From the NCBI RefSeq assembly GCF_001006305.1, contig NZ_LBHJ01000019.1, positions 248,001 through 312,000 on the forward strand: DNA of 64,000 bases, given 5' to 3'. The position numbers and the translations under genes were made by a program. Position 1 is the first letter of the stretch, and the number at the start of each line of letters is the position of its first letter. The notes beneath the pieces are model-generated. The model was not told where the DNA came from and ran no database searches. It worked only from the letters and a program-made list of their open reading frames with translations. Of this stretch, positions 3,841 through 48,971 are shown one piece after another. This DNA comes from Silvibacterium bohemicum (GTDB lineage Bacteria > Acidobacteriota > Terriglobia > Terriglobales > Acidobacteriaceae).

Positions 3841-4281
3841 ATGATTACCCGCAGAGATTTATTCGTAGCCTTGATCGCCATCACCCTCACGGCAGGAGCC
3901 TTCGCTTTTACCAACAGCACGCCTATTTTGGGCTCCGCTGTCTTCGATTGGAATTCTATCCCGGACAAGAAGACCGATGTCGGTTCGGTGCGATCGTTTG
4001 TGAAAGCTCCCACGGCAACGCTCGATGAGTTGGAGATTCATGTGACCACTCTTGATCCGGGTAAGACGTCGCATCCGCCGCACAGGCACCCAAACGAGGA
4101 GCTGATCATCATCCGCCAAGGAACAGTGGAGACGCTCTCGAATGGGGTGTGGACGCGGGTGGGACCGGGGTCGGTGATCTTCAATGCCTCGAACCAACTC
4201 CATGGATTCCGAAATGTCGGCGCCGAGCCGGCCATTTATCACGTCATCAACTGGAAGTCCGCGGCTACTCCGAAGGAGTGA
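3841..4281 (+). CDS. exported cupin-domain protein
   Basis: A 146-residue small beta-barrel cupin protein of unknown substrate. The chosen ATG at 3841 follows AAGGTGAG. An open frame runs further upstream to 3733, but it has no signal sequence and no good ribosome site. Residues 1-22 form an export signal that starts TRR, so Tat export is possible. The metal-binding cupin motif 1 is clear (HPPHRHPNEE, about residues 78-87), followed by GTVETLSNG and a second half ending NQLHGFRN. It stands divergent to kdgK and upstream of a Tat-exported oxidoreductase, which suggests a periplasmic sugar role. I cannot name the reaction. Confidence 0.75.
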   Translation: MITRRDLFVALIAITLTAGAFAFTNSTPILGSAVFDWNSIPDKKTDVGSVRSFVKAPTATLDELEIHVTTLDPGKTSHPPHRHPNEELIIIRQGTVETLSNGVWTRVGPGSVIFNASNQLHGFRNVGAEPAIYHVINWKSAATPKE

Positions 4282-4383
4282 CGCGCCGTCTCCCGGCGGC
4301 GTTGAGCAGCGAGTACGGAAGACTTAATCCGCGTCCCGATTAAGAGGACTTCACAGAACCAAACTTCGTGACGGAGCAAATGG

Positions 4384-5556
4384 ATGCAGAGTGAAAGCAT
4401 AGGCCGGCGGTCGTTTCTCAAGACAATGGGATCGGTAGGGATGTTATCGGCGTTGCCGGACACGGCCTTTGGATTCGCGATCGGCAGCCACATTGCGCAT
4501 ACGGTCGCCGCGCCCGGATATGACGTCAAATCGAAGCCGAAGTACTCCATCAAATTCGGCGTGATCGGCCTCGATCACTATCACATCATGGGCATCACCG
4601 CTGCCGTGATCCGGGGCGGCGGCGAACTGGCGGCTTTTTACTGCACGCTGCCGCAGGCCATTGCCGATTTTCAAAAGCTCTATCCCAATGCCAAGCTGGC
4701 CAGGAGCGAGGATGAGATTCTGGATGATCCGTCGATCAAGCTGGTATGCGGAGCTCCGATTCCCTACCTGCGCGCGCCCCTGGGTATTCGTGCGATGCAG
4801 CACGGCAAGGACTTTCTCAGCGACAAGCCGGCAATCACCACCCTGGAGCAGCTCGCGGAGGCGCGCAAGGTCTCGGCTGAGACGGGAAAGATGTTTGCCA
4901 TTATGTACTCCGAACGGCTGGAGGTGCGGGCGGCGGTGCAAGCCGGCTATCTCATCCAAGCAGGCGCGATCGGGAAGGTAGTGCAGACGGTCAACATCGC
5001 TCCGCATAAGGTGAATGACATCTCTCGTCCCGACTGGTTCTGGGATCCGAAAAAGTACGGCGGCATTCTTACGGATATCGGATCGCATCAGGCGGACCAG
5101 TTTGTTTACTACACTGGCTCGACTACCGCTGATGTCACCGCGTCGCAGATCGCGAACGCGGCTCATCCGAATCATCCGGAGTTCCAGGATTTCGGCGACA
5201 TGATGCTGCACGGCAACGGCGGTGCGGGCTACGTGCGGGTGGATTGGTTTACACCGAATGGTCTTCCTGTGTGGGGCGACGGCAGGCTCTTCATCCTGGG
5301 TACGGAGGGTTATATCGAACTTCGAAAATATATCGATATCGCCGGGCGTCCCAAAGGAAACCATCTATTCATCGTGGATCAGAAGGAGATTCGCTACATC
5401 GACTGCAACGAAGTCGAGCTTCCTTTCGGCCAACAGTTCGTTTCCGACGTTGTGAACCGAACTCATACCGGGCAGAACCAGGAGCAGGCGTTGCTGGCCG
5501 CGGAATTGGTTCTGAAGGCGCAGAAGAATGCGAAGGTCCTTACTTTTTCTGCATAA
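4384..5556 (+). CDS. Tat-exported Gfo/Idh/MocA family oxidoreductase
   Basis: This 390-residue protein has a textbook twin-arginine signal near its N terminus (GRRSFLKTMG, residues 7-16), so it should be exported folded, with its nicotinamide cofactor bound. The Rossmann start is GVIGLDHYH at about residue 58 and the family lysine lies in SDKPA near residue 140. The C-terminal domain includes DIGSHQADQF. GGAG precedes the ATG. It follows the cupin gene by 102 nt in the same direction. Exported members of this family act on sugars or glycosides, but the substrate here is unknown. Confidence 0.85.
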   Translation: MQSESIGRRSFLKTMGSVGMLSALPDTAFGFAIGSHIAHTVAAPGYDVKSKPKYSIKFGVIGLDHYHIMGITAAVIRGGGELAAFYCTLPQAIADFQKLYPNAKLARSEDEILDDPSIKLVCGAPIPYLRAPLGIRAMQHGKDFLSDKPAITTLEQLAEARKVSAETGKMFAIMYSERLEVRAAVQAGYLIQAGAIGKVVQTVNIAPHKVNDISRPDWFWDPKKYGGILTDIGSHQADQFVYYTGSTTADVTASQIANAAHPNHPEFQDFGDMMLHGNGGAGYVRVDWFTPNGLPVWGDGRLFILGTEGYIELRKYIDIAGRPKGNHLFIVDQKEIRYIDCNEVELPFGQQFVSDVVNRTHTGQNQEQALLAAELVLKAQKNAKVLTFSA

Positions 5557-16762: not shown

Positions 16763-17011
16763 CTACTTCCCTTGCTGCTTCTCTGCAACCAGGTCCACCA
16801 TCTCTCCGACATTCTTCAGTTTTTGCAATTCGCCAAGAGTGAACTTTACTTTGAATTTCTTCTCCACGCCGGTCACGATGTTGATGTGCGAGAGCGAATC
16901 CCAGTCTTCCACCGTCAGTGCGCTCGATTCGCGGGTAACTACGAGGTCCGGCTGATCTAAAACATCGCGAAAGATCGGTTGCATATCCGCGAGAATCGCA
17001 TTGCTATCCAT
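16763..17011 (-). CDS. acyl carrier protein (EPS module 1)
   Basis: The 82-residue four-helix carrier protein has Ser39 in the motif WDSLSH as the phosphopantetheine site. Its start overlaps the end of the FkbH-like gene by 8 nt, and GGAGA precedes the ATG, so translation is probably coupled. The pairing of FkbH and a dedicated carrier protein is known from polyketide pathways, where FkbH loads glyceryl from 1,3-bisphosphoglycerate. Here no polyketide synthase is present and the neighbours are envelope acyltransferases. I infer that the thioester serves EPS acylation. Confidence 0.9.
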   Translation of the reverse strand: MDSNAILADMQPIFRDVLDQPDLVVTRESSALTVEDWDSLSHINIVTGVEKKFKVKFTLGELQKLKNVGEMVDLVAEKQQGK

Positions 17012-18800
17012 TTACAGTCTCCAGTATCCGAATGTGAGTGTTGCGTGGCTGGTATCCGGCCAAATCCAGTGTCCATTCCGAGGTTCCGTCCGCATCCATC
17101 CGAGTTTTTTCGAAGCCAAGACCAGCATAGTGTTCCATCACCATGCCGTTCTTCTTCGTAGGAAGATAATATCCTATTAACCGCGCCAGTCCTGACTGCT
17201 TGGCGCGCGCCACCAGTTCGTCCAACATGGCAACTTCCATATCGCGTTTCAGGACGCGGCAGCTCATCAACCATAAGTCGAGGAGCAAAGTGCCACCAGG
17301 AGCTTCGAAGTCCTTACGTCCGAGAACAATCGAGATCAGGCCGTTATCACCAAATCTGTCGATGAGCCGGCCATAAATACCAATGTAATTCGAATCTGTT
17401 GAGATGGACTCCATCTCAGCCAGCGTGTAGCGGCGCGTGGTGAGATTGAATTGGTTGGTCTTGTTTGTCAGTTGGGCGATACGCTCGATGTAGACAGGTT
17501 TGAATGTATCGATCTCCGCAACCATTTCGAGAGAGTCGAGATATTCGCCATAATTCGCGAATTTTCTTTCCAGAGCGGCACGTTGAGAATTTTCAGCGTA
17601 GAGTGCGGCTCTCTCCAGATCCTCTTTCGACAACGAAAGGGATTCGAAATAACGACCCTGCTCCACTATCTCTGCATACTTTGAGACTTCGCTGCCGACA
17701 TCAGGCACAGCTACCCCCGGCACCTGAGCCTCGACAATCGAGCGCTCGGCGGGATTGTCGTCGACGAAGACGAAGCTGTCGACTCCGAGGTTCAGTTCCT
17801 GAGCGATCGCCAGAATGTTTTCGTGCTTCGGCTCCCAGTTCGCTTTGAAGCAGGAGATATGCTCGAGCTTCAACACTGAGCTGGGGTGCTCGAAGCCAGT
17901 CTTGGCGATCTCCTCAGTATTTTTCGAGCAGACGGCAAGCAGGATGCCGCGATTGCGGAGCGAGAGGCAGTATTCCTGGAAGGCAGTGTAGGATTCAGCT
18001 ACCGGTGTTTCGCGACCAATCTGAATCTTATCTACGCCATCGTCGCCGATAACACCGCCCCACAAAGTGTTATCCAGATCGAGAACCAGCACCTTGCGGC
18101 TCTTGCCGTAGAGAGCACTCACGGTCGCTGCGAAGGAGCGCGCCAGCTCGAGGTGGGCTTCCGGAGTTAGCAGCAACTTATAGCTAAAGTAGCGAGTCCA
18201 ATCGAACCATTGCTTCAGGCCGAGCCTTGCGGAGATGCTGTGCACATCCTGCAGAATCACCTTCGACCGCTTGGCGATTTCCTGGGAGAGCGAGACATTC
18301 AACTGCAACAGGAAGCGAGTTAGGCCTCCGCTCGCAATCGCATCGTAGTTGCCGAGGATTGCGTAGGGCGGCGCTTCAAAGTTGTTCTGAATGACCTGGC
18401 AGCCGACATTGCGCTCGAGCGCGTCCCAAATTTCGGCATAGCGCGCTGTCTCGGTCTGCACATAGCTGGCAAGTTCCGCCTCGGTGCAGCTGAGCGGAGG
18501 CGCATTCTGTACATTACGGCAAGACGTATGAACGTAGACAAGGTCAGGCTTGAAATCAATGAGCGCCTGAGGATCGTGAACAGCGTCATCATAGAAACGT
18601 CCGTAATCCGACTGATAAAACACGGGACGAAAGCCATCCGACAGAAGCAGTAATTCGAACAAACCGACTAACTCGTTGGTGGTCGAGCCGCCAAGCACGG
18701 CGATCCGCAGCTCTTTCAAATCGGTCGAAGCTGAGAGCTGCCGCCGCAGGCTATTTCGCTTAGTCAGAAGTTCATCAACGGATAGTGAGTTCAGATCCAT
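17004..18800 (-). CDS. FkbH-like HAD-superfamily acyl-loading protein (module 1)
   Basis: The 598-residue protein has three parts. An N-terminal region (about 30-230) starts with a GGST loop. A HAD IIIC domain (about 235-400) carries DLDNT at 241-245, a conserved cysteine in VCSKN (Cys291) and DDNP at 347-350. A GNAT-like C-terminal domain (about 420-585) follows. FkbH proteins take a phosphoglyceryl group, dephosphorylate it and pass it to a carrier protein. The carrier gene overlaps its 3' end. In this locus it sits after MBOAT, SGNH and acyltransferase genes, pointing to a secreted polymer and not a polyketide as the acceptor. Glyceryl as cargo is inferred; lactyl is a known alternative. 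Confidence 0.87.
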   Translation of the reverse strand: MDLNSLSVDELLTKRNSLRRQLSASTDLKELRIAVLGGSTTNELVGLFELLLLSDGFRPVFYQSDYGRFYDDAVHDPQALIDFKPDLVYVHTSCRNVQNAPPLSCTEAELASYVQTETARYAEIWDALERNVGCQVIQNNFEAPPYAILGNYDAIASGGLTRFLLQLNVSLSQEIAKRSKVILQDVHSISARLGLKQWFDWTRYFSYKLLLTPEAHLELARSFAATVSALYGKSRKVLVLDLDNTLWGGVIGDDGVDKIQIGRETPVAESYTAFQEYCLSLRNRGILLAVCSKNTEEIAKTGFEHPSSVLKLEHISCFKANWEPKHENILAIAQELNLGVDSFVFVDDNPAERSIVEAQVPGVAVPDVGSEVSKYAEIVEQGRYFESLSLSKEDLERAALYAENSQRAALERKFANYGEYLDSLEMVAEIDTFKPVYIERIAQLTNKTNQFNLTTRRYTLAEMESISTDSNYIGIYGRLIDRFGDNGLISIVLGRKDFEAPGGTLLLDLWLMSCRVLKRDMEVAMLDELVARAKQSGLARLIGYYLPTKKNGMVMEHYAGLGFEKTRMDADGTSEWTLDLAGYQPRNTHIRILETVNG

Positions 18801-18855
18801 TATGGCGCCATCCTATAAATGTAATAAATGCGTTGACGGTAACAACAAACTTCAT

Positions 18856-20082
18856 CTATTTCGCGTAGGTTTCCACTGGCGTTGCACCGGCCTTTTCTCT
18901 CTGCTCAGCCCGCTGTCGAAAAATGAGTGTTTCTACATGACGGCGGAAGTAATCGGTGTTGCGCTCGAATAGTAAATATTGAATCCCAGCATAGAGATAC
19001 ACCAGAACAAAGAGCAATGCAGTGACTACGACCTTGTGACCAAAGAGCTGCGGAAACGTCGCCTCAGTGAAAGCAGCCAGGAAGATAGCCATGGGAATAT
19101 GAGACGCATAGAGAGTATACGAAGGGAATGACAATCCATGCGCCAGGCGCGAATATAGCGATGTTCGTGCTGGACCTGTGAGGTGGAGAATACCGTAGAG
19201 AAACAGCGTAAATGAAACTGCCAGGACCATATCCGCTCGCAGGGCGCCGATCGCTTTCGAGCGAAGAATATAGAGCACGGCCAGAAACTGCAGGAGAAGA
19301 AGTAGATTTACCGGCTTCAGCCAGGACTGCGGAACGCGCGGCGGGATGAGATAAGCGACGACACCTAAGCACCAGAGTGGGAAGTAAAGCGCAATGCGAG
19401 AGCCCACAAACCAAAGGCCGATGATCGCGAGAATGCCCAACCCTATACGCACGGCCTTCGAGGTTCTCGGAGAAAAAAGACAGACGGCGATAAGTGGAAA
19501 GAGCGCGTAATACCAGAACTCGCAGGAAAGACTCCACAGCGCACCATTCGAACCAAAGGCCACCGGGGCGAAGTGAGTTATCGTCTGCAAGAAAAACAGG
19601 TAATGCAGAAAGACGCCGATTCCTGGAAAGCCGGTGACATGCCGGCTGAACTCTCCACCGGTAAAGATTTGTGTGGACGAGTAGAAGTGAAGGCTTAAGG
19701 AATCGATGATTGCGCCAAGAACCAGCACCGGAATTAGCACTGTCCAAAGACGAGCTACGCGACGGAGCGCATACTTCGGCCAGGAGAAGGCATTGCGCTT
19801 CAAGTCGCGCAGCACGCTCCCGCCTACGAGATAACCGCTCAGCACAAAGAAAACGACGACGGCTGCGTGCCCGAGCCCAGTTGCATCCGCGGGATGCGAG
19901 GTTGGATCTGATTTATGCAGTGAACTGGCGGCGTTCGTATGTCCATAGACAATGAGATGCAGGTGTCCGTAAAAGACCACGAGCGCCGCTAATCCTCGCA
20001 CGAAGTCCAAGTGCAGAGAATAGGCGGGAAGAACGCGGCTCTTCTTTCGCTCTGTGTCGGTGAGGATTTGGTCTTGTGGCAT
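18856..20082 (-). CDS. acyltransferase 3 (OafA/NodX-like) membrane protein
   Basis: The 408-residue multi-pass membrane protein belongs to the acyltransferase 3 family. It shows the family start RGLAALVVFYGHLHL (about residues 29-43) with its conserved Arg and His, and about ten hydrophobic segments. Such enzymes move acetyl or other acyl groups onto polysaccharides. It lies between the SGNH gene (30 nt upstream) and the FkbH gene (55 nt downstream). It could use acetyl-CoA for a separate O-acetylation or take part in the module-1 acylation. The ribosome site before the ATG is weak. Confidence 0.87.
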   Translation of the reverse strand: MPQDQILTDTERKKSRVLPAYSLHLDFVRGLAALVVFYGHLHLIVYGHTNAASSLHKSDPTSHPADATGLGHAAVVVFFVLSGYLVGGSVLRDLKRNAFSWPKYALRRVARLWTVLIPVLVLGAIIDSLSLHFYSSTQIFTGGEFSRHVTGFPGIGVFLHYLFFLQTITHFAPVAFGSNGALWSLSCEFWYYALFPLIAVCLFSPRTSKAVRIGLGILAIIGLWFVGSRIALYFPLWCLGVVAYLIPPRVPQSWLKPVNLLLLLQFLAVLYILRSKAIGALRADMVLAVSFTLFLYGILHLTGPARTSLYSRLAHGLSFPSYTLYASHIPMAIFLAAFTEATFPQLFGHKVVVTALLFVLVYLYAGIQYLLFERNTDYFRRHVETLIFRQRAEQREKAGATPVETYAK

Positions 20083-20112
20083 AGTGTGTATTTTCGACCT
20101 AATTGGCGCGCA

Positions 20113-21387
20113 TCACCTTGATACAGAGGCGGAGGTTTGAGCGATGTTATCCGCTTGCGACAGCACAAGCCGATTGACGGACGCGGCCTGGGACGCGCCT
20201 TTTCCAACAGATCTCGCGGTCTGAGTGTCAGCCGGCGCTTGCCGGTGCACTATCTGGCTCTCCTGGCATAACTTTGCAGCTACGATCTCCCCGGCCAGCC
20301 GATTACCGAGAACGTTCCAATGACCGTAATTAGGAGCGGTGTTATAAAAGCCGTGGATATACGCATGGTTCTTCGCGGTATAGTCGGCAAGCGTTGGAGC
20401 AAGGGTAATATGCGGGATGCCGTTCTGCTCTGCGAAATTAGCGGCGCGGCGATCTGGGTAATATAAGTCGGAAACACCCAACTTATTTCGGAATGCTTCG
20501 CGGTCGGCGAGATCCGGATCTACCTGTTCATTCATATCCGGGGTGACTAGCCAAAACTCGGCGCCGTGTTGTGCAGCTTCATGCTTCATCTGACCCCAAA
20601 CGGCCTCTGAAACCGCCCATGCATTGATCGTCCCCGGATCCTTGGGCGGATAAAATTCCTGATGCTGATCGAGCAGGGCGTGCGGCCCCTGGTATCTGAG
20701 CATAGAAGCTTCGATCATCAAGGCTATCTGAGACTTGTTGATCATGTCCTTGATTTTGTTCGATTCGGCCAGACGCTTGGGATCAATTGGCTTTTGATCT
20801 TTAGTTATCTTGTCTGGTACAAGCTCTCCGTCTTGAACGAGGAAAAAGGGATACGCACCTGCGTTGTGCTTCGTCCTGCGATCGTCGTTCATGATGTCGT
20901 TATTTAAAGCTGCGACATCGATGACTATCTGCGGATCGAAACGCCACACATCCTTTCGGAGCGTGATCAACTGCTGCGCCAGTCCGTAGCCTTCCACTCC
21001 AAAGTTGAAGACTTCGACATGCTTCCAGGGAAGATTCGGGCAATCTTCCAGCTCTCTTTGAATAACGGACGTGAGGCTTTGCTCGTAGCTTACGTGATCA
21101 GCCTCGACGACAGAACTTCCGAGCACAGCAATTCTCAAAGTGTCTGCTGGGCGGGCTACAGCGTGCTCCCGATCATGGAATCCATAACTATTGATGACCA
21201 CGTAGCTGCGGCCTTCGCCCTTCCACCAGCCGTGAGCTCCCGGCCGAAGATGAATGAAGCGGTCGGAGTCGTGCATCATGAATGACGGGTTGAAGTCGGC
21301 TTCCGCGATGTGCATCCCCGCGTCGATCAGGATGACCCAACAAACCGTAATCACTAGAACGCTAACGATATCTCTAATAAGCCGCAT
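20113..21387 (-). CDS. SGNH-type acyltransferase partner of MBOAT (module 1)
   Basis: I use the ATG at 21387, which overlaps the MBOAT stop by 14 nt and follows GGCGGAGG. The 424-residue product has an N-terminal membrane anchor (about 8-24) and a periplasmic SGNH-like domain. Visible elements are Ser91/Ser92 in VLGSSVVE, Asn residues in AALNNDIMND (about 159-168), and His356 in NYGHWN replacing the usual DxxH. MBOAT/SGNH pairs work in series, and the SGNH serine receives the acyl group and passes it to the polymer, as for DltD and AlgJ. The last 50 residues are polar and look disordered. Confidence 0.8.
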   Translation of the reverse strand: MRLIRDIVSVLVITVCWVILIDAGMHIAEADFNPSFMMHDSDRFIHLRPGAHGWWKGEGRSYVVINSYGFHDREHAVARPADTLRIAVLGSSVVEADHVSYEQSLTSVIQRELEDCPNLPWKHVEVFNFGVEGYGLAQQLITLRKDVWRFDPQIVIDVAALNNDIMNDDRRTKHNAGAYPFFLVQDGELVPDKITKDQKPIDPKRLAESNKIKDMINKSQIALMIEASMLRYQGPHALLDQHQEFYPPKDPGTINAWAVSEAVWGQMKHEAAQHGAEFWLVTPDMNEQVDPDLADREAFRNKLGVSDLYYPDRRAANFAEQNGIPHITLAPTLADYTAKNHAYIHGFYNTAPNYGHWNVLGNRLAGEIVAAKLCQESQIVHRQAPADTQTARSVGKGASQAASVNRLVLSQADNIAQTSASVSR

Positions 21388-22849
21388 AGATAAACGCGCC
21401 TCCGCCGCTTGCCAGCACGTAAAGCAGAACATATGCAACCAGCACGCTCATCGCGGTGCAGGAGTAGACTGACCAGCGCGCCCAGCGCGGCAGAAGCAGT
21501 ACAGCGCCCCCGTCTTCGCTGTGGCGGCGATAGTAATCGCCCAGTTCGATCAGAACGTAGCCACCGAACCCAACTTCGATTAGGCGTCCCCAATAGCCCC
21601 AGAAGGTGACGAATTCCGAGGAGAGATGAGTGAGGCCACTGAAAGGATGACCTGACAGATAGAACGCATCGCTCATGTTCGGCGAACGGAAAAAGATGAG
21701 ACTGAAGGCGAATAGGTGGAAGGTGAGGACCGGACCTATCCAATCGGTGACACGGTCGGCGAGCTTGCTGCGCTTGTACCATCCTTTACGCGTTTTACGG
21801 CTGAGCGCGTCGACCGAAAGATATGCGCCCTGTAGAACCCCGAAGGTCACATAGGTCAGCTTGACACCATGCCAGAGCCCGATCGCAATCATGTTGACGA
21901 AGAGGGCAAACACAAGACCCGTTTGGCCCCACTCGCGAACGGTCATACGCACCGGCGTGAAGACGTAATCGGTGAGCCAGGTGGTGAGAGTGATATGCCA
22001 GCGGCGCCAGAACTCGCTGATGTTAGGCGCGGCAAAAGGAGCGATGAAGTTCTCAGGAGTTTCGATGCCCAGCAGAAGAGCAGAGCCGATTGCGATGTCG
22101 GTCAGGCCCGAGAAATCGGCGTACATCTGCAGGGGGAAAATATAGAAACCGAGAATGAGCGGCGTGCCGCCGAGGTGTAAATTCGTGTAGACATAGTCCA
22201 CCAGCTTCGCCATGTTATCGGCAACAACGAATTTCTTAAAGAGGCCGAGGAGGATGCGCTGAATGCCGAGAAGTGCGAGAGACCATGTCGCGTTAGGCGC
22301 GGCTTCAACCTGCGGCAGGAAGCTTTCGCTGCGCTGGATGGGGCCGGCAAGCATCTGCGGAAAGAAAGCGACGTAGGTTGCGAATGCGGTCAGATTCTTC
22401 TCGGCCGGTGTTTTCTCGTAATAGACGTCGAGAATATAGCTGAGAAGCTTGAACGAGTAATAAGAAAGGCCGAGCGGAACAATGAGGTTTGTTCTGAACT
22501 GGGAGAGAGCTCCCGATAAATGCATGCGCCAGAACGGATAAGTTTTATAGGCACATAACAACAAGAGCACGATGGCGACACCCACCGCCATGCTCAGTTG
22601 CTTCTTGCCCTTAGACTTTTGCGCCTCTATGGCCAGCGCCAAGTAGTAAGTGACCAGGGTGATCACGGCGAGGAGAAGGGTGAGCCAATGGTTCCATTCA
22701 AAATAGACAAAGTACGACGCAACCAGAAGGAGAGGTGCGCGCATAGTGCGGGGAGTGAGCCGATAAACGACCGCCAGCGCCGCCATGAATATCAGAAACA
22801 CGGGGGCTGTGAGGCTATAGATGGGAAGATATGAGTTCAGAAGGTGCAA
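21374..22849 (-). CDS. MBOAT family O-acyltransferase with C-terminal tyrosine shuttle (module 1)
   Basis: The 491-residue AlgI/DltB-like protein has about eleven membrane segments, WRRWH at 281-285 and the catalytic histidine His327 in GLWHG. Its extreme C terminus is FIYAAY (486-491), a hexapeptide with tyrosine at position 3 and an aromatic at position 6. That is the layout of the extracytoplasmic acyl-shuttle motif of DltX, here fused to the MBOAT. I read the start as TTG at 22849 behind GGAGAG. The SGNH gene overlaps its end. The predicted job is to carry an acyl group from the cytoplasmic carrier protein across the membrane. Confidence 0.88.
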   Translation of the reverse strand: MHLLNSYLPIYSLTAPVFLIFMAALAVVYRLTPRTMRAPLLLVASYFVYFEWNHWLTLLLAVITLVTYYLALAIEAQKSKGKKQLSMAVGVAIVLLLLCAYKTYPFWRMHLSGALSQFRTNLIVPLGLSYYSFKLLSYILDVYYEKTPAEKNLTAFATYVAFFPQMLAGPIQRSESFLPQVEAAPNATWSLALLGIQRILLGLFKKFVVADNMAKLVDYVYTNLHLGGTPLILGFYIFPLQMYADFSGLTDIAIGSALLLGIETPENFIAPFAAPNISEFWRRWHITLTTWLTDYVFTPVRMTVREWGQTGLVFALFVNMIAIGLWHGVKLTYVTFGVLQGAYLSVDALSRKTRKGWYKRSKLADRVTDWIGPVLTFHLFAFSLIFFRSPNMSDAFYLSGHPFSGLTHLSSEFVTFWGYWGRLIEVGFGGYVLIELGDYYRRHSEDGGAVLLLPRWARWSVYSCTAMSVLVAYVLLYVLASGGGAFIYAAY

Positions 22850-41833: not shown

Positions 41834-42326
41834 ATCTGAGCCAAGGATAAGAGAGCTCCCAAGCCTCTACAAGCCGCCGAACGTTTAGAAATCGGATGAG
41901 AAAGAAGGGCGGGGCGTTGCCGTAACCTTCTCCTCCCCAGACGAAAAAGACCCCAAACTTCCTGTCTCCCAGGAGTGAAGCTTCTCTATTTTCAACAGAG
42001 AAGAAAGTTTGACGGAAATTTTTATTGCAAATCCTTCCGAATCCCGTAAAGTAAAAACACATGGTTAACGTTGATCGCTCTCTGACTTCGGCCTCAACGG
42101 CCACGTGTTTTTGAACGACAAACCTCCTGGTGCGTCATCATGATGTCACCTCCCCGGGCCTTCTCAGAGTGATTGCAACTCTCGACGTACGTAGATCGAG
42201 TCCCGGATAGAACTCAACATGCTTGCCCGCAATTGCATCGTAAGATGTGGTCAGCAGCGGGCTTGTAAATTGCCTCGGCGCCGACGAAATGCCCGGAACT
42301 TCCACCCCCTGAGAGGAAGTCGTTGG
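41834..42326. promoter_or_regulatory. divergent regulatory region between PilZ and LuxR-type genes
   Basis: These 493 nt should contain both divergent promoters. TTGACG at 42009-42014 is a possible -35 but has no good -10 partner. A 10-bp palindrome CATCATGATG lies near 42138-42147. Open frames in this stretch lack ribosome sites, and the frame continuing into the LuxR gene from 42219 does not look coding. Confidence 0.35.
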
Positions 42327-43070
42327 ATGTCATTAAAAATGAGTAGTGAAGAGCGAGTTCTCAAGATTGCCCAACATCCAAGTCCTGCGCTGCACGCGCT
42401 GATTGCGGATAGGGATTCGATGAGTAGCCACCTTCTTGCGGACGCTCTTGTCCGGAACCGCAAGTGCGATGCTACGGCTATACACCCGTCTGATCTGATG
42501 GAGGTGTTGGCTGTCCGCGAGATCGATCTGGTGGTTATTGGCGCCGAGATCAATTCGGATGCAAGCGGCGGCTTTGATCTGGCGGACACAGTGTGCCGGA
42601 CATATCCGGACCTCATGATTGTTCTTCTTCTCAATGAAACGACTCATGAGGCGGTGGTCAACGCGTTCCGCTCCGGCGCGCGGGGAGTTTTTTCAAGACA
42701 AAAGCCGATCGGCGAGTTCCTCGATTGCATTGAACACGTAAGCAAGGGATATATTTGGGCGGGCAGAGAGGAAACCACTTCCCTACTCGAAGCGTTCCGG
42801 AATATTCCTGCTCCGAGCGTGTTGACTGCCGACAATGCATTGCCTCTCACCAAGCGCGAATTTGAAGTCGTGCAATGCGCAGCCAAAGGCAAAACAAATA
42901 AGACCATCGCCAGTGAACTCGGCCTTAGTGAACACACGGTAAAGAATTATCTTTTTCGAGCCTTCGACAAATTGGGCGTATCCAGCCGTGTCGAATTGCT
43001 GTTCTATCTAACGATTCGCGGACATACCTTCGGCGCAGTCAAACCCGAAGCAGATCTCAGATTCGAGTAA
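42327..43070 (+). CDS. LuxR/FixJ-type regulator with atypical receiver domain
   Basis: I use the ATG at 42327 after GAGGAAG, giving 247 residues. The N-terminal receiver-like domain (about 22-140) has ALIADRDSM at the first strand. At the phosphorylated aspartate position it reads DLVVIGAEI, with Gly in place of Asp. The lysine near FSRQKPI is kept. The C-terminal LuxR domain is normal (LTKREFEVVQCAAKGKTNKTIA with SEHTVKNYLFRAFDKLGV). A phosphorylation-independent regulator is inferred. It faces away from the EPS operon and precedes the second acylation module, and could control either. Confidence 0.85.
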   Translation: MSLKMSSEERVLKIAQHPSPALHALIADRDSMSSHLLADALVRNRKCDATAIHPSDLMEVLAVREIDLVVIGAEINSDASGGFDLADTVCRTYPDLMIVLLLNETTHEAVVNAFRSGARGVFSRQKPIGEFLDCIEHVSKGYIWAGREETTSLLEAFRNIPAPSVLTADNALPLTKREFEVVQCAAKGKTNKTIASELGLSEHTVKNYLFRAFDKLGVSSRVELLFYLTIRGHTFGAVKPEADLRFE

Positions 43071-43805: not shown

Positions 43806-45779
43806 ATGACCTTGACTTATGAAGGCCGCTTCGATAGACCTAATTCTATGGGCGACACCAAGACCGTTGGCAACGCGCTCCACCAGGCTCCCTCAGAATC
43901 GACAATTCAGGCGCATGAAACTCGCGGATTGAAGGATCTACTCAGGGATAGCGATTCGTCGTTCGTACCGCTGCTCAAGTCCAAGACGAAGGAAGCACGA
44001 TCGTTCAGCGAGGTTCTCGCACTCAACACTTTGAGGAAAAGAGCGAGCCAGACAAATCTCTGGCCTTCTTCTAAGTCGACTCTGCGACTGGCAATTATTG
44101 GTGGCTGCAGTCTTCGACCGCTGGCTGATCTTATCGAACACTTCACGATCGTTCTTGGCGATGTCAATCTTCAGTTATGGACTGGTGATTATGACAACTA
44201 CATCTCCGAGATAATGGATGAAGACAGCAACTTATACGCATTCAAGCCAGAGTTAGTTTTTGTCCTACCCTCGGAACGCCGCTGCCGCTACACCGGAAGG
44301 CTGGCCGATCCTCTTGCGCTTCAGGAAGCGGAAGCAAATCAGGCAGTCACTGACATTCTCGGCCTCATTGCACAAATCCATGACCGCTCCGGCGCGTCCG
44401 TGGTTGTTGGCAATTTCCGCTTGCCTCCTTATTTCGATCCCGGCGCCATGCGGAATTCCGGACTTAGCTCCGAGTATGCCTTCCGGAAATATGTAAATTA
44501 TCAGATAGGGCTGAACTTACCCGCATACGCGCATATCTGCGATATAGAGTTTCTTGCGAATCGCCTTGGGACTGTGCGCGCTTTTGACGAGCGCACCTGG
44601 TTTGAAAGCAAGCAGCCTTTCTCCACCGATCTGATGGTGGAAGTAGCCAGAGAGTTTGCCCTTCTCGCCGCAAGCCTGAAACGGGCGACCAAGAAAGTCA
44701 TCGTTCTGGATCTGGATAACACGCTTTGGGGTGGCGTGATTGGGGACGATGGCCTGGAAGGCATCGAAATCGGGACTACTTCTCCGCGTGGCGAGGCCTA
44801 TCGCGACTTTCAGCAAACCCTGCTGGAAATCTCCAAACGCGGCGTCTTACTCGCGGTTTGCAGCAAGAATGATCACGACAAGGCCATTGAGCCTTTCCTG
44901 AAGCATCCTGAAATGGTGCTTCGGCTTTCCAATATCGTGAACTTCAAGGCTAACTGGGAGCCTAAGTCGGAAAATATTCGCCAGATAGCGCTCGAGCTTA
45001 ATCTTGGGGTCGACAGCTTTGTCTTCTTCGACGACAACCCTGCGGAAATCGATATTGTCAAACAGTTCGTTCCTGAAGTGGACGCGATCTGGCTGGGCGA
45101 AGATCCTTCCACCTACGCCACCACGCTCAAGGACTGCCGTCACTTTGAAATGCGGTCTGTGACCAAAGAAGACCTGGAGAGAGTTCAGCTCTATCAGCAG
45201 GAGGCGAAGCGCCAGGAGTTGCAGAGCACTGCGACGGACATGGATGCCTATCTCTCGTCCCTGGAGATGACCGCTACGATTTCGGAATTCACTCCAATTG
45301 ACGTGCCCCGCATCACGCAACTCATCAATAAGAGCAATCAATTTAATTTGACGACGCAGCGGCGAACCGAAGTTGAAGTTCGCGCGCTCATCTCAAGCAC
45401 TGACCACGCCAGCTTTACCATCCGGCTTTCCGATCGTTTTGGAGATCACGGTCTGATCGCCATCGTGGTAACGAAGATCGACGGAGCGGAACTGCTGATT
45501 GACACCTGGCTGATGAGCTGCCGGGTATTGAAGCGACAGGTTGAGGAAGCTACGCTGAATGAGATCGTTCGTGTTGCCAAGGAACGCGGCTGCGAACGCA
45601 TCGTCGGGACTTACAAACCGACTGCCAAGAATGGCATGGTTCGCGATCTCTATCCGCGGCTCGGATTTGCTCCGGGAGATCTCGCCGATGAGACTTCTAC
45701 TTATATATTAGATGTAGCGAACTACTCGCCCAGCAAGACCAAAATTCAAGTAGCGGAGCCAGCCGGTGCAACAATCTGA
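43806..45779 (+). CDS. FkbH-like HAD-superfamily acyl-loading protein (module 2)
   Basis: The 657-residue paralogue of the module-1 FkbH protein has an N-terminal extension of about 60 residues. The HAD domain carries DLDNTLWGG near residue 302, the VCSKN cysteine near 353 and FFDDNPAE near 410. A GNAT-like domain forms the C-terminal part (about 480-645), with TNKTN-like INKSNQFNLTT and WLMSCRVLKR. It should load glyceryl, or a similar hydroxyacyl group, onto the carrier protein whose gene overlaps its end by 14 nt. The start ATG follows GGGGGGA. No polyketide genes are near. Confidence 0.87.
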   Translation: MTLTYEGRFDRPNSMGDTKTVGNALHQAPSESTIQAHETRGLKDLLRDSDSSFVPLLKSKTKEARSFSEVLALNTLRKRASQTNLWPSSKSTLRLAIIGGCSLRPLADLIEHFTIVLGDVNLQLWTGDYDNYISEIMDEDSNLYAFKPELVFVLPSERRCRYTGRLADPLALQEAEANQAVTDILGLIAQIHDRSGASVVVGNFRLPPYFDPGAMRNSGLSSEYAFRKYVNYQIGLNLPAYAHICDIEFLANRLGTVRAFDERTWFESKQPFSTDLMVEVAREFALLAASLKRATKKVIVLDLDNTLWGGVIGDDGLEGIEIGTTSPRGEAYRDFQQTLLEISKRGVLLAVCSKNDHDKAIEPFLKHPEMVLRLSNIVNFKANWEPKSENIRQIALELNLGVDSFVFFDDNPAEIDIVKQFVPEVDAIWLGEDPSTYATTLKDCRHFEMRSVTKEDLERVQLYQQEAKRQELQSTATDMDAYLSSLEMTATISEFTPIDVPRITQLINKSNQFNLTTQRRTEVEVRALISSTDHASFTIRLSDRFGDHGLIAIVVTKIDGAELLIDTWLMSCRVLKRQVEEATLNEIVRVAKERGCERIVGTYKPTAKNGMVRDLYPRLGFAPGDLADETSTYILDVANYSPSKTKIQVAEPAGATI

Positions 45780-46011
45780 AGTTCTCGAACGACTGCAGGG
45801 GGTTTTCGATGAGATTTTTCTCGAAAAAGTCGTAGTGACTCCCGAATTAACGGCGAACGATGTATCCGAGTGGGATTCGCTCCTACATGTCTCACTGATT
45901 CTCGCGGTCGAGCAAGAGTTCGGCATCCGTTTTCGTGTAGGCGAAGTAGAAGGCACCAAAAATGTTGGAGAACTCGCCGATCTCATCGCAAAGCGCACGG
46001 AAAAGAAATAA
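45766..46011 (+). CDS. acyl carrier protein (EPS module 2)
   Basis: The 81-residue carrier protein has Ser38 in EWDSLLH as the phosphopantetheine site. It starts with GTG at 45766 inside the fkbH-like gene, so translation is coupled. It is clearly related to the module-1 carrier, and the two share the WDSL core and the KNVGE motif near the C terminus (about residues 66-70). Its likely job is to hold the group loaded by FkbH and present it to the MBOAT at the inner face of the membrane, as DltC does for D-alanine. Confidence 0.9.
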   Translation: MQQSEVLERLQGVFDEIFLEKVVVTPELTANDVSEWDSLLHVSLILAVEQEFGIRFRVGEVEGTKNVGELADLIAKRTEKK

Positions 46012-46054
46012 CTCCGGCCTTGCCTGGCGCCTGAATTCAAAAGAATTCCGAGCG

Positions 46055-46086
46055 CGTAACTGAAAGCGCAAAGATTTTCAGTTACG
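46055..46086 (+). other. hairpin between carrier protein and microprotein genes
   Basis: A perfect 11-bp stem CGTAACTGAAA (46055-46065) and TTTCAGTTACG (46076-46086) has a 10-nt loop. There is no T tract, so full termination is unlikely. It could separate expression of the soluble genes (FkbH, ACP) from the membrane genes that follow. Confidence 0.5.
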
Positions 46087-46126
46087 GACTTGGAATAAGT
46101 GTCTCCCCGTTGCGTTGGAGGATGGT

Positions 46127-46303
46127 ATGGCGAAGTCGCAAGGAAATCCTGAAACCGATAAGAAATCTTCGGGAGCAGCGAGCAGCACGGTAGATACTGC
46201 GGTGTTGGTTCTTGCGGTTATCCTTTGCACTGCTTCCTGCGCGGTTATGCTGATGCTGAATCCGCACTCGCTCGATGTTGGCTCGGTCTATCAGGGATTC
46301 TGA
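46127..46303 (+). CDS. 58-residue membrane microprotein with C-terminal tyrosine motif, DltX-like
   Basis: The ATG at 46127 has GGAGG 6-7 nt upstream. The product has a lysine-containing polar N terminus (1-21), one membrane segment (about 22-44) and a short tail that should face the periplasm by the positive-inside rule. The last six residues are SVYQGF (53-58): tyrosine at position 3, aromatic at the end. DltX, the microprotein of the Dlt system, has the same size, topology and C-terminal tyrosine hexapeptide, which carries the acyl group between DltB and DltD. Here it lies between the carrier protein gene and the SGNH and MBOAT genes. No overall sequence similarity to DltX is claimed. Confidence 0.75.
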   Translation: MAKSQGNPETDKKSSGAASSTVDTAVLVLAVILCTASCAVMLMLNPHSLDVGSVYQGF

Positions 46304-46506
46304 TCTGATTTTTTCTCACCGCGGCGCACTGTCGGCAGGCTGTTTCGATCAAAATCTGCTGAGCAGGCCTTGAGTCGATGTTGCAGCGGCTTCGAAAGTG
46401 ATTGGCTGAGCTCCTGGCTGGAGCGGCAAAGCATTTCGTTTCGTTGCTTGCTGAAGACTGCCCAAAGAATCGCTCTATCTGACACGAAAGGAACCGGCAA
46501 GGTCTG

Positions 46507-47568
46507 ATGTATCCAGCATTCCGTTCCAACAGATCTGCACTCGCGTTTTGCCTGCTCCTGATATTTCTGCTGGCTCTGCCCGTCATCTTATCCTGGATGC
46601 CGCCTGTGTCTGATGAGCAGGATTTCATCAGCATGTCGAATCAGGTGGGTCCCATCGGCTGGGACGCGCAACAAGTCTATGAGGACCCCAAAGACGCGGA
46701 TGTCGTGTTTCTGGGCAGCTCCCGGATTATGGAGGGAGTTCGTGCGGACCTCGTCGAGAAATCATTCAGCGCACGCCTTGGCCGTCCGGCCCATGTGGCG
46801 ATGCTCGCGTTGAATTGGCCGGGAGAAGATCTCCACTACTACATGCTGCGGGACTATCTTCAGCATCATCATGCAGCGCTCATCGTTTGGAATCTTCCCC
46901 AGCCCGGCTCATTTACGAACGAGCCTCATGTGCAGTCGTCTCACTGGATCAGATTCGATCGCAACGACAATACCTTGAGCAGTTTGCCCGTTCGCGATCG
47001 ATTGAGTCTTTATTCGGAGATGGTATTTGGCGCTCCGAGAGCGCTGCTCGCGAAGATCAGGCCCAATCTCATCGGCGACGATGAAAAGACGTTTGCCGCC
47101 TACGGAAGATACAAGAACGAAGATCCGGAACGCAGGCTAGGCTATTACGGCACGCCTTTCGTGCAGGATAGTATGCCCGTGCCTTCGATCGGAGACGGGG
47201 CTCTGATATCCGTTAGCTCTCCTGCTCTTGATAATGCCGGTCCCTATCCCGAGCCGTATCAACTCCATTACATCCAAGCGATCGTAGACCTCGCCAAACA
47301 GCATGGTTCGAAGCTGGTCTTTCTCCATCTTCCGACAGTAGAAGAATTCGGTGACACCACGCTTCCTGAGATCGCATCCTGGTCGCAGGTGATGGGACCG
47401 AACTACAGCATGATCGGAGTTCCGGGAGATGTGCTATTTGCTGGAGTGACTCGCGAGAGACTGCCGAATTTCTTTGCCAACCACAACCACTTCAATCGAA
47501 ATGGCTCGACGTGGTTTACGGAGACGATAACGCCCGCGCTCCTGAAGGCTTACAGCTTGAACCAGTGA
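46507..47568 (+). CDS. SGNH-type acyltransferase partner of MBOAT (module 2)
   Basis: The 353-residue protein has an N-terminal membrane anchor (about 12-30) and a periplasmic domain. VVFLGSSRIMEG (about 66-77) holds the candidate nucleophile Ser71/Ser72. LNWPGEDL follows near 100, and NHNHFN (325-330) replaces the DxxH motif. This pattern is that of DltD/AlgJ-like proteins and not of free esterases. It should take the acyl group from the microprotein tyrosine and pass it to the polymer. It is only distantly similar to the module-1 SGNH protein. Confidence 0.78.
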   Translation: MYPAFRSNRSALAFCLLLIFLLALPVILSWMPPVSDEQDFISMSNQVGPIGWDAQQVYEDPKDADVVFLGSSRIMEGVRADLVEKSFSARLGRPAHVAMLALNWPGEDLHYYMLRDYLQHHHAALIVWNLPQPGSFTNEPHVQSSHWIRFDRNDNTLSSLPVRDRLSLYSEMVFGAPRALLAKIRPNLIGDDEKTFAAYGRYKNEDPERRLGYYGTPFVQDSMPVPSIGDGALISVSSPALDNAGPYPEPYQLHYIQAIVDLAKQHGSKLVFLHLPTVEEFGDTTLPEIASWSQVMGPNYSMIGVPGDVLFAGVTRERLPNFFANHNHFNRNGSTWFTETITPALLKAYSLNQ

Positions 47569-47598
47569 CATCGTTTTCGCTATTGGAGTGATGGCCGG

Positions 47599-47641
47599 CT
47601 CAGGGAAATAAGTCCCTGAGTGTATCGAAAGCCTTCGATAC
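47599..47641 (+). other. tandem hairpins between SGNH and MBOAT genes
   Basis: Two perfect 8-bp hairpins lie side by side: CTCAGGGA/TCCCTGAG (47599-47620) and GTATCGAA/TTCGATAC (47622-47641). A T-rich run (TGTTCTTTT) follows. They may cause partial termination, tuning the MBOAT level, or protect the upstream RNA. Confidence 0.55.
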
Positions 47642-47696
47642 TGCTGTTCTTTTACATATTTCCTGGCTTTGCCTGTTTCGATTTTCGGGGGAAGAA

Positions 47697-48971
47697 ATGC
47701 TTTCTCGCAACGCGCCGTTAGCCACCTTGCTTTTTACTTTCGCCGCATATCCCATTGCCGCATGGCTGGTGCTGCGTTTTGTGCGCGGGGGTTTGAAAAC
47801 GTGGTTGTTCGCGCTTCTGAACGTGGTGGGGGCTTATGTTGCATGTCTCGCGGCGCTGATCGATAACAGAACCGCGATGAAACCGCTACTCCTGAAGACC
47901 GTAGGCGCCGCATTTCTGGTTTACTTCCTTCTGGTGCTGGTCAACTACTGGCTGCTGAAGCGGACGAAAAACGGTACCGAGACGTGGGGAACCGTCGCAC
48001 TTTGGTTCCCGATCGCGATCCTCATCGTGATCAAATATGTTCCGATTCTCGACTCTTCGTTTGCGCCGGCATTGCATGCCGTCCTTTTAAATCATGTAGC
48101 TGCGCTCTTTCTTGGCCTCTCCTATTTGACTTTTCGCCTTTGCCACCTCGTTCAGGAGGTGCGGAACGACTTAGTCGAGATGCCGACATTGTCGGAATAT
48201 CTTTCTTTTGCGTTTTTCGTTCCGACATTGTCGATAGGGCCGATCAGCCCATACAGCCGATATATCGCTTCCTATCGGGATCCAATTCAGGATCCTGCCG
48301 TTAAGCGCAGAGCGCTGCTCAGAGTTCTTGTCGGTCTAACTAAGTATCTATTCCTCTCGTCTCTGTTGAGCCAATACACTTATTCGGGTCTCTTGCTTGA
48401 CGGACACCCCCATCACAGGATCGATCTGCTCGTCGCGCTCTTCGGCTACACGCTCTATCTGTACTGCAATTTCTCGGGCTTCTGTGACATGGTCGTGGGC
48501 ATGTCAGGTCTTCTCGGCATCGACGTGATGGAGAACTTCAACGTCCCATTCTCGGCGCGAAATCTTCAGGAGTTTTGGAACAGGTGGCACATCTCGCTGT
48601 CGACATGGCTGCGGGATATGATGTTCACCCCCATGGTCAAAATGCTGGTGAGGATCTTCGGTCCCAAGAGCGCCAACAACGCTATCGCCTTCTCGATCTG
48701 CGCTGTTTTCGTAGTTATCGGCGTCTGGCACGGGGTCGGCATCAACTTCGCCCTGTTTGGACTTTTCCACGGCATAGGCTTAGCCAGCGTCCACTACTAC
48801 GGCATATTCATCAAGAAGCGCCTGGGCAAACAGGGCTTTCTCGCATACCGCGAAAACCGCGTGATCGGCGCCGTCGGCACGGCTCTAACCTTCACTTATT
48901 TCTCCCTGTCCCTCTTTCTCTTTGCAAATAGCTGGGAGAATATGCACCAGATATTCAAGGTGCTCGTTTAG
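47697..48971 (+). CDS. MBOAT family O-acyltransferase (module 2)
   Basis: The 424-residue multi-pass protein has NRWH at 295-298, LSTWLRDMMFTP just after, and the catalytic His345 in GVWHG. GGGGGAAG lies before the ATG. Its C terminus ends HQIFKVLV without a tyrosine hexapeptide, unlike the module-1 MBOAT. This matches the presence of a separate microprotein in the same operon. The role inferred is transfer of the carrier-bound acyl group across the membrane to that microprotein. Confidence 0.88.
   Translation: MLSRNAPLATLLFTFAAYPIAAWLVLRFVRGGLKTWLFALLNVVGAYVACLAALIDNRTAMKPLLLKTVGAAFLVYFLLVLVNYWLLKRTKNGTETWGTVALWFPIAILIVIKYVPILDSSFAPALHAVLLNHVAALFLGLSYLTFRLCHLVQEVRNDLVEMPTLSEYLSFAFFVPTLSIGPISPYSRYIASYRDPIQDPAVKRRALLRVLVGLTKYLFLSSLLSQYTYSGLLLDGHPHHRIDLLVALFGYTLYLYCNFSGFCDMVVGMSGLLGIDVMENFNVPFSARNLQEFWNRWHISLSTWLRDMMFTPMVKMLVRIFGPKSANNAIAFSICAVFVVIGVWHGVGINFALFGLFHGIGLASVHYYGIFIKKRLGKQGFLAYRENRVIGAVGTALTFTYFSLSLFLFANSWENMHQIFKVLV

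Follow-up and report, generated by a model that had tools for sequence, protein, structure and literature searches.

Genes of the cassette

The window analysed here is a 64-kb stretch (64,000 nucleotides) of the Silvibacterium bohemicum genome. A set of five genes on its forward strand, spanning positions 43806–48971, encodes in order an FkbH-type protein, an ACP, a microprotein, a 353-aa SGNH-fold protein, and an MBOAT. The features of this cassette are as follows.

43806..45779, + strand: FkbH-type glyceryl loader, 657 aa, with stop (TIGR01686, PF21211)
45766..46011, + strand: stand-alone ACP, 81 aa, GTG start, overlapping the FkbH gene by 14 bases (PF00550)
46117..46121, + strand: ribosome-binding site GGAGG of the microprotein gene, 5 bases ahead of the ATG
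46127..46303, + strand: microprotein gene, candidate acyl shuttle, 58 codons plus stop (58 aa)
46289..46291, + strand: codon of Tyr55, the proposed acyl acceptor, an invariant column of alignment A6
46507..47568, + strand: SGNH-fold transferase, 353 aa, with an N-terminal helix at residues 8–29 (AlphaFold, Foldseek, alignment A4)
47697..48971, + strand: DltB-like MBOAT, 424 aa, without a C-terminal Tyr motif (PF03062, TIGR04091, PDB profile matches, alignment A1)

The microprotein begins MAKSQGNPETDKKSSGAASSTVDT, continues with one hydrophobic helix, and closes with NPHSLDVGSVYQGF, its C terminus being SVYQGF. The N terminus ahead of the hydrophobic segment contains K, and the C-terminal tail after it has no K or R. 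The frame, the GGAGG site, and the hydropathy profile agree with the original prediction of a 58-codon gene with a strong ribosome site, one membrane helix, and an SVYQGF end. Two features set this member apart from its relatives. It is 58 aa long vs. 40–45 aa elsewhere, owing to an N-terminal extension unique to the window, and its gene precedes the SGNH gene, unlike in all other loci.

The window FkbH matches TIGR01686 with 321.8 bits, above the curated cut-off of 146.65, and PF21211 with 30.2 bits (cut-off 27). The ACP matches PF00550 (PP-binding) with 23 bits (cut-off 20.8), and its DSL serine is residue 38, which we take to be the functional residue. The MBOAT belongs to family PF03062 (67.4 bits, cut-off 27); its score against TIGR04091 (DltB), 206.3 bits, falls below the curated cut-off of 375 for the DltB equivalog. 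W344-H345-G346 of the MBOAT is invariant in alignment A1, placing His345 within a WHG motif. The MBOAT profile gave two matches among PDB sequences, both to DltB (E 5e-47). The MBOAT ends ENMHQIFKVLV, which bears out the earlier statement that the MBOAT of this gene set lacks a terminal tyrosine motif.

The intergenic gaps within the cassette are 115, 203, and 128 bases. A terminator-like site occurs between the SGNH and MBOAT genes, from a scan not clearly above chance (9 vs. 6.0 +/- 2.2). An FkbH/ACP/SGNH/MBOAT operon had been claimed. The neighbours were confirmed by the profile matches and the SGNH-fold model, while co-transcription as one operon is plausible, judging from gene order and strand. 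A LuxR-type regulator gene (42219–43070, + strand; GerE, 66 bits) is located upstream on the same strand and could control the cassette.

The SGNH-fold transferase

The 353-aa protein had been read by eye as an SGNH protein. It matches no Pfam SGNH family at E 0.1 and no PDB sequence at E 1, but its AlphaFold model, built from 30 sequences, has an SGNH fold (mean pLDDT 84.3, pTM 0.85), in keeping with the earlier reading. The best Foldseek matches of the model are DltD (E 6.6e-5, TM-score only 0.40). VIA-align gave Z scores of 10.9 to DltD (248 residues aligned) and 10.8 to PatB (177 residues aligned), in a range (Z 10–12) that many SGNH folds reach against this model.

Gly70, Ser72, and His328 are invariant in all 30 rows of alignment A4, several of which share loci, and Ser72 and His328 are the putative catalytic residues. 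The SGNH motif DxxH has an Asp three residues ahead of the catalytic His. The position of this triad Asp varies: it is present in many relatives (YADPAHFN), shifted by one residue in Edaphobacter (YYDQHFN), and replaced by Asn in the window transferase (ANHNHFN). Some cassettes contain two or three SGNH genes in tandem, namely those at loci L037 (4280–6784), L041 (3260–6852), and L043 (4336–6852). In L037, each of the two SGNH genes is followed by a separate microprotein gene, hinting at SGNH-microprotein pairs.

Distribution of the cassette

A tblastn search with the 58-aa protein retrieved the same gene neighbourhood in three other genomes (E 6e-6, 3e-4, and 1e-3). Among 396 Acidobacteriota genomes, MBOAT matches at E 1e-40 were found in 11, namely the own genome, five close relatives (49–51% MBOAT identity), and five distant ones (32–35%). 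By tblastn, the five close genomes also encode FkbH (51–55%) and ACP (61–67%), plus SGNH and MBOAT, and reading of their DNA revealed a gene for a 42–44-aa microprotein placed between those for SGNH and MBOAT. Six of the 396 Acidobacteriota genomes, own included, have this MBOAT or one closely related to it, as do 5 of 300 in the family; the SGNH protein was matched in one of the 61 nearest genomes, which is the own genome. The cassette is accessory.

Scanning of an 84,980-species collection with the MBOAT alignment yielded 35 loci, of which 30 are near relatives (identity at least 39%). Loci L015, L017, and L019 are on the same contigs as L036, L028, and L039 and were counted once. A microprotein on the + strand, with a hydrophobic segment and a YxxF end, is encoded in the cassettes of 28 of the 30 near-relative loci. 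The two others are cut or rearranged: the contig of L031 starts inside the cassette, and in L053 FkbH runs into half an MBOAT. Conservation of the frame had been set as a test of the original prediction; 28 of 30 relatives thus have the frame together with an MBOAT of the same type. FkbH and ACP are each present in 25 of the 30 loci. FkbH is encoded outside the stretch read in the genomes of L031, L033, L045, and L052 (51–61% identity), and the L035 genome has only a fragmentary copy (46%) and a distant one (36%). Where tblastn found an ACP in relatives, its identity is 59–67%, save in L050 (56%). The position of the microprotein gene is not fixed, yet it remains linked to the cassette. It lies between the SGNH and MBOAT genes in most loci; in L050 and L051 it lies before the MBOAT gene, with SGNH further downstream.

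According to the host labels, the cassette is distributed over at least three phyla. The hosts include Edaphobacter and other Acidobacteriota, Verrucomicrobiota (subdivision 3, Limisphaerales), and Pseudomonadota (Magnetococcales, Thiotrichales). Melainabacteria and Methylacidiphilales are further labels, and many of the loci are metagenome bins. In the genus of genome G119, the MBOAT was found in 10 of 62 genomes and the microprotein in all 10; nine of these were already in the set and one (L120) is new. Only G448 itself was recovered when 387 genomes of its phylum were sampled. When the microprotein profile A6 was searched against the 396 Acidobacteriota genomes, 51 were matched at E 0.05, with strong matches (E up to 7e-14) in six. 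All six strong matches are in the operon and are rows of the profile, and the next match (8e-4) is a 412-aa frame. This search shows the specificity of the profile, not extra members.

Conservation, selection, and predicted topology

A total of 32 microproteins from 31 loci, the window's included, were compared. They are 40–58 aa long, each with a single hydrophobic segment by hydropathy, and in size and single helix they correspond to DltX. Only Met1, Tyr(-4), and Phe(-1) are invariant in these 32 proteins, which are related sequences and not 32 independent events, and which were picked by their YxxF ending, such that variants with another ending would escape. Conservation of Tyr55, also set as a test beforehand, accordingly takes the form of Tyr and terminal Phe in 32/32. 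The rest of the tail is less strict: 31 proteins have V at position -5 and one has I, 25 have Q at -3, and 30 have G or A at -2. In a control with 28 of these loci, read on both strands, the YxxF end occurred in one of 97 other frames of at least 34 codons whose tail is strongly hydrophobic, the one being a fused MBOAT, vs. 29 microproteins ending YxxF; this control addresses chance, not missing variants.

Pairwise NG86 dN/dS values for eight microproteins of the Edaphobacter group, computed without L027 on account of its length, are 0.068–0.338 in 27 of 28 pairs, and one pair is saturated. The gene is under purifying selection in the relatives.

Charges flanking the hydrophobic segment are distributed unevenly. 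Over the 32 microproteins, the N-terminal side has 54 K/R and 17 D/E, and the C-terminal side has 19 K/R and 29 D/E. In 24 proteins the N side has the higher net charge, in seven the two sides are equal, and in one the N side is lower. A cytoplasmic C terminus had been named as an outcome that would speak against the shuttle; the charge balance favours an N-in/C-out orientation, with the tail predicted outside.

Fused and free forms of the tyrosine tail

The window contains a second FkbH system on the reverse strand, with the following features.

21374..22849, - strand: second, fused-type MBOAT with C terminus FIYAAY (PF03062, 78.9 bits), reaching 88 aa past the end of the split MBOAT
20113..21438, - strand: SGNH-like protein, assigned by eye and place, with no Pfam match at E 0.001
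18856..20082, - strand: putative AT3 acyltransferase, assigned by eye
17004..18800, - strand: FkbH (PF21211, 32.5 bits)
16763..17011, - strand: ACP (PF00550, 22.5 bits)

This set (16763–22849) adjoins a minus-strand exopolysaccharide cluster reaching 40934, which includes an O-antigen-ligase-type gene, a flippase, a sugar transferase, Wzz, an export protein, and a NusG-like gene. The free-shuttle cassette starts after the end of the same cluster, at 43806 on the + strand. Since both systems adjoin the cluster, its exopolysaccharide is the likely acceptor for both. A structural model of the fused MBOAT (pLDDT 75.5) matches DltB, and its tail residues 444–491 have pLDDT values under 50, so the tail Tyr has no placement in the model.

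Altogether, the loci examined yielded 52 MBOAT frames. Thirteen of them end Y..[FY] and reach 68–96 residues past the end of the window MBOAT, while the other 39 extend 0–5 residues. The extensions of the fused forms mostly contain two more hydrophobic segments, with one in the second MBOAT of the window and three in two others. Within the 0.3–3 kb flanks examined, a separate YxxF microprotein was found beside none of the 13 fused MBOATs, and the MBOATs of the FkbH clade without the C-terminal motif come with a free microprotein. This pattern, seen in 13 of 13 fused MBOATs, agrees with the expectation that the shuttle is separate when the MBOAT has no motif.

Five outlying motif-less MBOATs, at L021, L024, L056, L058, and L067, also have a microprotein. 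The candidates end QFVYVNF in L021 (end 10310), TFIYRGF in L024 (end 10645), TPIYAGF in L056 (end 8012), and TPIYARY in L058 (end 7985). The hosts of these four loci are Acidobacteriota and Actinomycetota, and FkbH was not found at the loci. L067, on a Leptolinea plasmid (Chloroflexota), has a 47-aa "hypothetical protein" (4268–4411) ending LWIYQGF just before the motif-less MBOAT, with no FkbH among the annotated genes nearby. L058 and L059 have near-identical stretches of MBOAT plus microprotein despite very different organism names; the label of L059, Bifidobacterium breve, is probably a binning error. Among the four DltB loci used, a DltX frame was found in three (L063, L064, L068) and none in L069. 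L065 (3153–4340) is a lone plasmid DltB after an annotated bactofencin gene and ends YVKF, without the fused-tail extension.

In the tree of 51 MBOATs, the 29 rows with FkbH and a split shuttle form one group (100/100). The fused FkbH MBOATs of L020, L022, and L023 join this group (95/84), followed by DltB (88/83). At least two changes of state on well-supported branches are required to explain the fused form. The tree was computed without L037 (MBOAT frame cut at 7888), L031, L053, L054, L057, L059, and L065, and the long branches L055, L067, windowB, L029b, L024, L021, and L060 have unsure places in it.

Proposed function and alternative explanations

Taken together, the gene at 46127–46303 very probably encodes a stand-alone transmembrane acyl shuttle, which would receive a glyceryl group or a derivative from FkbH by way of the ACP and the MBOAT on Tyr55, and hand it by way of the SGNH transferase to an exopolysaccharide. 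FkbH would take glyceryl from 1,3-bisphosphoglycerate and load it on the ACP. FkbH/ACP pairs of natural-product pathways have been proposed to make glyceryl-ACP (PMC7489565). The MBOAT, with His345, would then shift the glyceryl from the cytoplasmic ACP arm to the Tyr55 hydroxyl in the outside tail, by analogy with DltX and PatA; an acetyl-Tyr has been demonstrated in PatA, and Tyr transfer has been reported in the case of DltX (PMC12148441, excerpts). From the tail, the acyl group may move on to Ser72 of the SGNH transferase, and this enzyme would esterify a sugar in the exopolysaccharide that the neighbouring cluster makes. In comparative-genomic terms, the predicted DltX-like acyl shuttle is supported by the conserved tail, the gene linkage, and the complementarity of fused and free forms.

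The group that is moved may differ among hosts, as some loci have MaoC, SDR, or methyltransferase-like genes. MaoC-type dehydratase genes are present in 12 of 30 loci, query locus included (L030, L031, L034, L037–L040, L043, L044, L046, L050, and L051), and an SDR gene in 11 of 30, query locus included. These genes suggest that glyceryl-ACP is modified before transfer in about a third of the relatives, perhaps to a lactyl-like group. In L035, the gene ahead of the ACP was read by eye as a methyltransferase. Within the 64-kb window, the MaoC and SDR queries gave no match at E 1e-4, and plain glyceryl is the simplest guess for the acyl group of the window.

Small membrane proteins often serve as structural or regulatory subunits, and the microprotein could likewise be a subunit that docks SGNH on the MBOAT, with the tail as a docking peptide whose Tyr bears no acyl group. 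The conservation of Phe(-1), equal to that of Tyr, would fit such a role. We nevertheless consider it unlikely: conservation is limited to the YxxF tail while the helix drifts, the MBOATs with this tail in their own chain are precisely those that lack the free protein, and the equivalent PatA tail is an acetyl acceptor (PMC12148441, excerpts). Another explanation accepts the shuttle but regards the cassette as a diverged Dlt pathway with its loader replaced, moving an amino acid or acetyl group and not a glycerate derivative. DltB as the nearest relative of the MBOAT among solved structures and DltD as the best Foldseek match of the SGNH model are compatible with this. Against it stand the recurrence of FkbH and ACP in most loci, the FkbH genes in the other tested genomes (a fragment and a distant copy in the case of L035), and the glyceryl-ACP proposed for FkbH pairs (PMC7489565); DltA was noticed in none of the loci read, by reading only, and we give this explanation little credence. 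Short frames are common, with 144 ORFs of at least 40 aa overlapping 18 kb of the window, but a chance open frame or a decayed MBOAT tail is barely conceivable in view of the conservation, the dN/dS values, the control frames, and the ribosome site; 46127–46303 is a real gene.

Returning to the acyl shuttle, we lean towards a broader reading in which the cassette represents a third way of acylating polymers across the membrane, next to D-alanylation and to acetylation fed by acetyl-CoA. It would combine an FkbH-loaded glyceryl (or lactyl-like) group, a Tyr ester, and a free microprotein. Free shuttles would then be a general bacterial option, gained or lost repeatedly. They would be accompanied by FkbH in Acidobacteriota, Verrucomicrobiota, and Pseudomonadota, whereas no nearby FkbH was seen in Actinomycetota, Chloroflexota, and other Acidobacteriota. 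The Tyr shuttle has so far been regarded as peculiar to Gram-positive D-alanylation, and the cassette places a candidate outside Dlt and separates the shuttle from the chemistry. With the free and the fused version in one window, nature has set up an experiment on what makes the shuttle a separate chain in some systems. For annotation, an MBOAT of this kind without a C-terminal Y..[FY] should have a microprotein partner, a rule that could recover overlooked genes of 40–60 aa.

Comparison with DltX and other known systems

The DltX profile PF12459 matched none of the 32 microproteins at E up to 10, a threshold at which HMMER filters drop most matches above 0.1, and it had no match in the own genome. 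A profile-profile comparison of the microproteins with three DltX sequences returned no alignment. With no match from either search, the resemblance to DltX is one of size, topology, the YxxF end, and context. The published Dlt motif is FxYxxF (PMC12148441, excerpts). A DltX-type tyrosine hexapeptide had been predicted for the window; its YxxF part holds in 32/32 microproteins, while the Phe at -6 is found in 0/32. The gene context also differs from that of DltX (DltA, DltB, DltC, and DltD), with FkbH as loader and an MBOAT under the TIGR04091 cut-off. In our interpretation, the window microprotein works like DltX yet is not filed as DltX, because it lacks the PF12459 profile match, the FxYxxF motif, and a DltA loader.

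Direct sequence comparison gave no clear sign for or against descent from DltX or from a fused tail. When A6 was compared with 143 segments, the top score was 16.5 bits for the L024 microprotein, followed by 12.2 for the fused tail of L066, 10.7 for a non-tail MBOAT segment of L055, and 9.9 for the L067 microprotein; two DltX scored 3.5 and 2.7 bits.

No description of an FkbH/ACP/microprotein/SGNH/MBOAT cassette was found in the open-licence literature, in agreement with the original prediction, which knew of no description of an FkbH-linked microprotein of this kind. Open-licence papers pairing FkbH with MBOAT concern aeruginosin or suomilide peptides (PMC13122637, PMC10143770), and nothing was found there for FkbH with O-antigen or for FkbH with lactyl and ACP. 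Among the matches listed, the term "DltX-like" occurs in the open-licence MBOAT/SGNH/FkbH/microprotein literature only in PMC12148441. Excerpts of that 2025 paper state that non-Dlt MBOAT-SGNH pathways have no similar carrier protein and no DltX-like microprotein, and the loci reported here look like exceptions to both stated absences.

The Dlt system (DltX/DltB/DltC/DltD) and the cassette share a single-helix microprotein of 40–60 aa ending YxxF, a carrier protein, a motif-less MBOAT, and an SGNH-fold transferase. The cassette has FkbH where Dlt has DltA, its microproteins lack both the Phe at -6 and a PF12459 match, and its hosts are of Gram-negative type. Its microprotein gene lies beside SGNH or MBOAT, whereas the DltX gene of L063 lies before dltA. 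PatA/PatB and the fused MBOAT-SGNH pairs (AlgI, WssH; PMC12148441, excerpts) likewise have an MBOAT, an SGNH partner, and a Tyr tail of the same size and spacing. In the PatA type, however, the tail is part of the MBOAT chain and the donor is acetyl-CoA instead of ACP, while in the cassette the tail is a free protein. The 13 fused MBOATs read here resemble the PatA type in their tail extension (68–96 aa) with hydrophobic segments. The fused FkbH/ACP/MBOAT systems (window 16763–22849; L020, L022, and L023) share with the cassette FkbH, ACP, and MBOAT in one locus, but their shuttle tail (FIYAAY; DIVYKAF) is within the MBOAT chain, and no free microprotein occurs in the flanks examined. In the tetronate and methoxymalonate pathways, the group handled by FkbH/ACP enters a polyketide, whereas in the cassette the pair is accompanied by membrane acyltransferases and polysaccharide genes. 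We propose that FkbH/ACP pairs can also act on surface polysaccharides.
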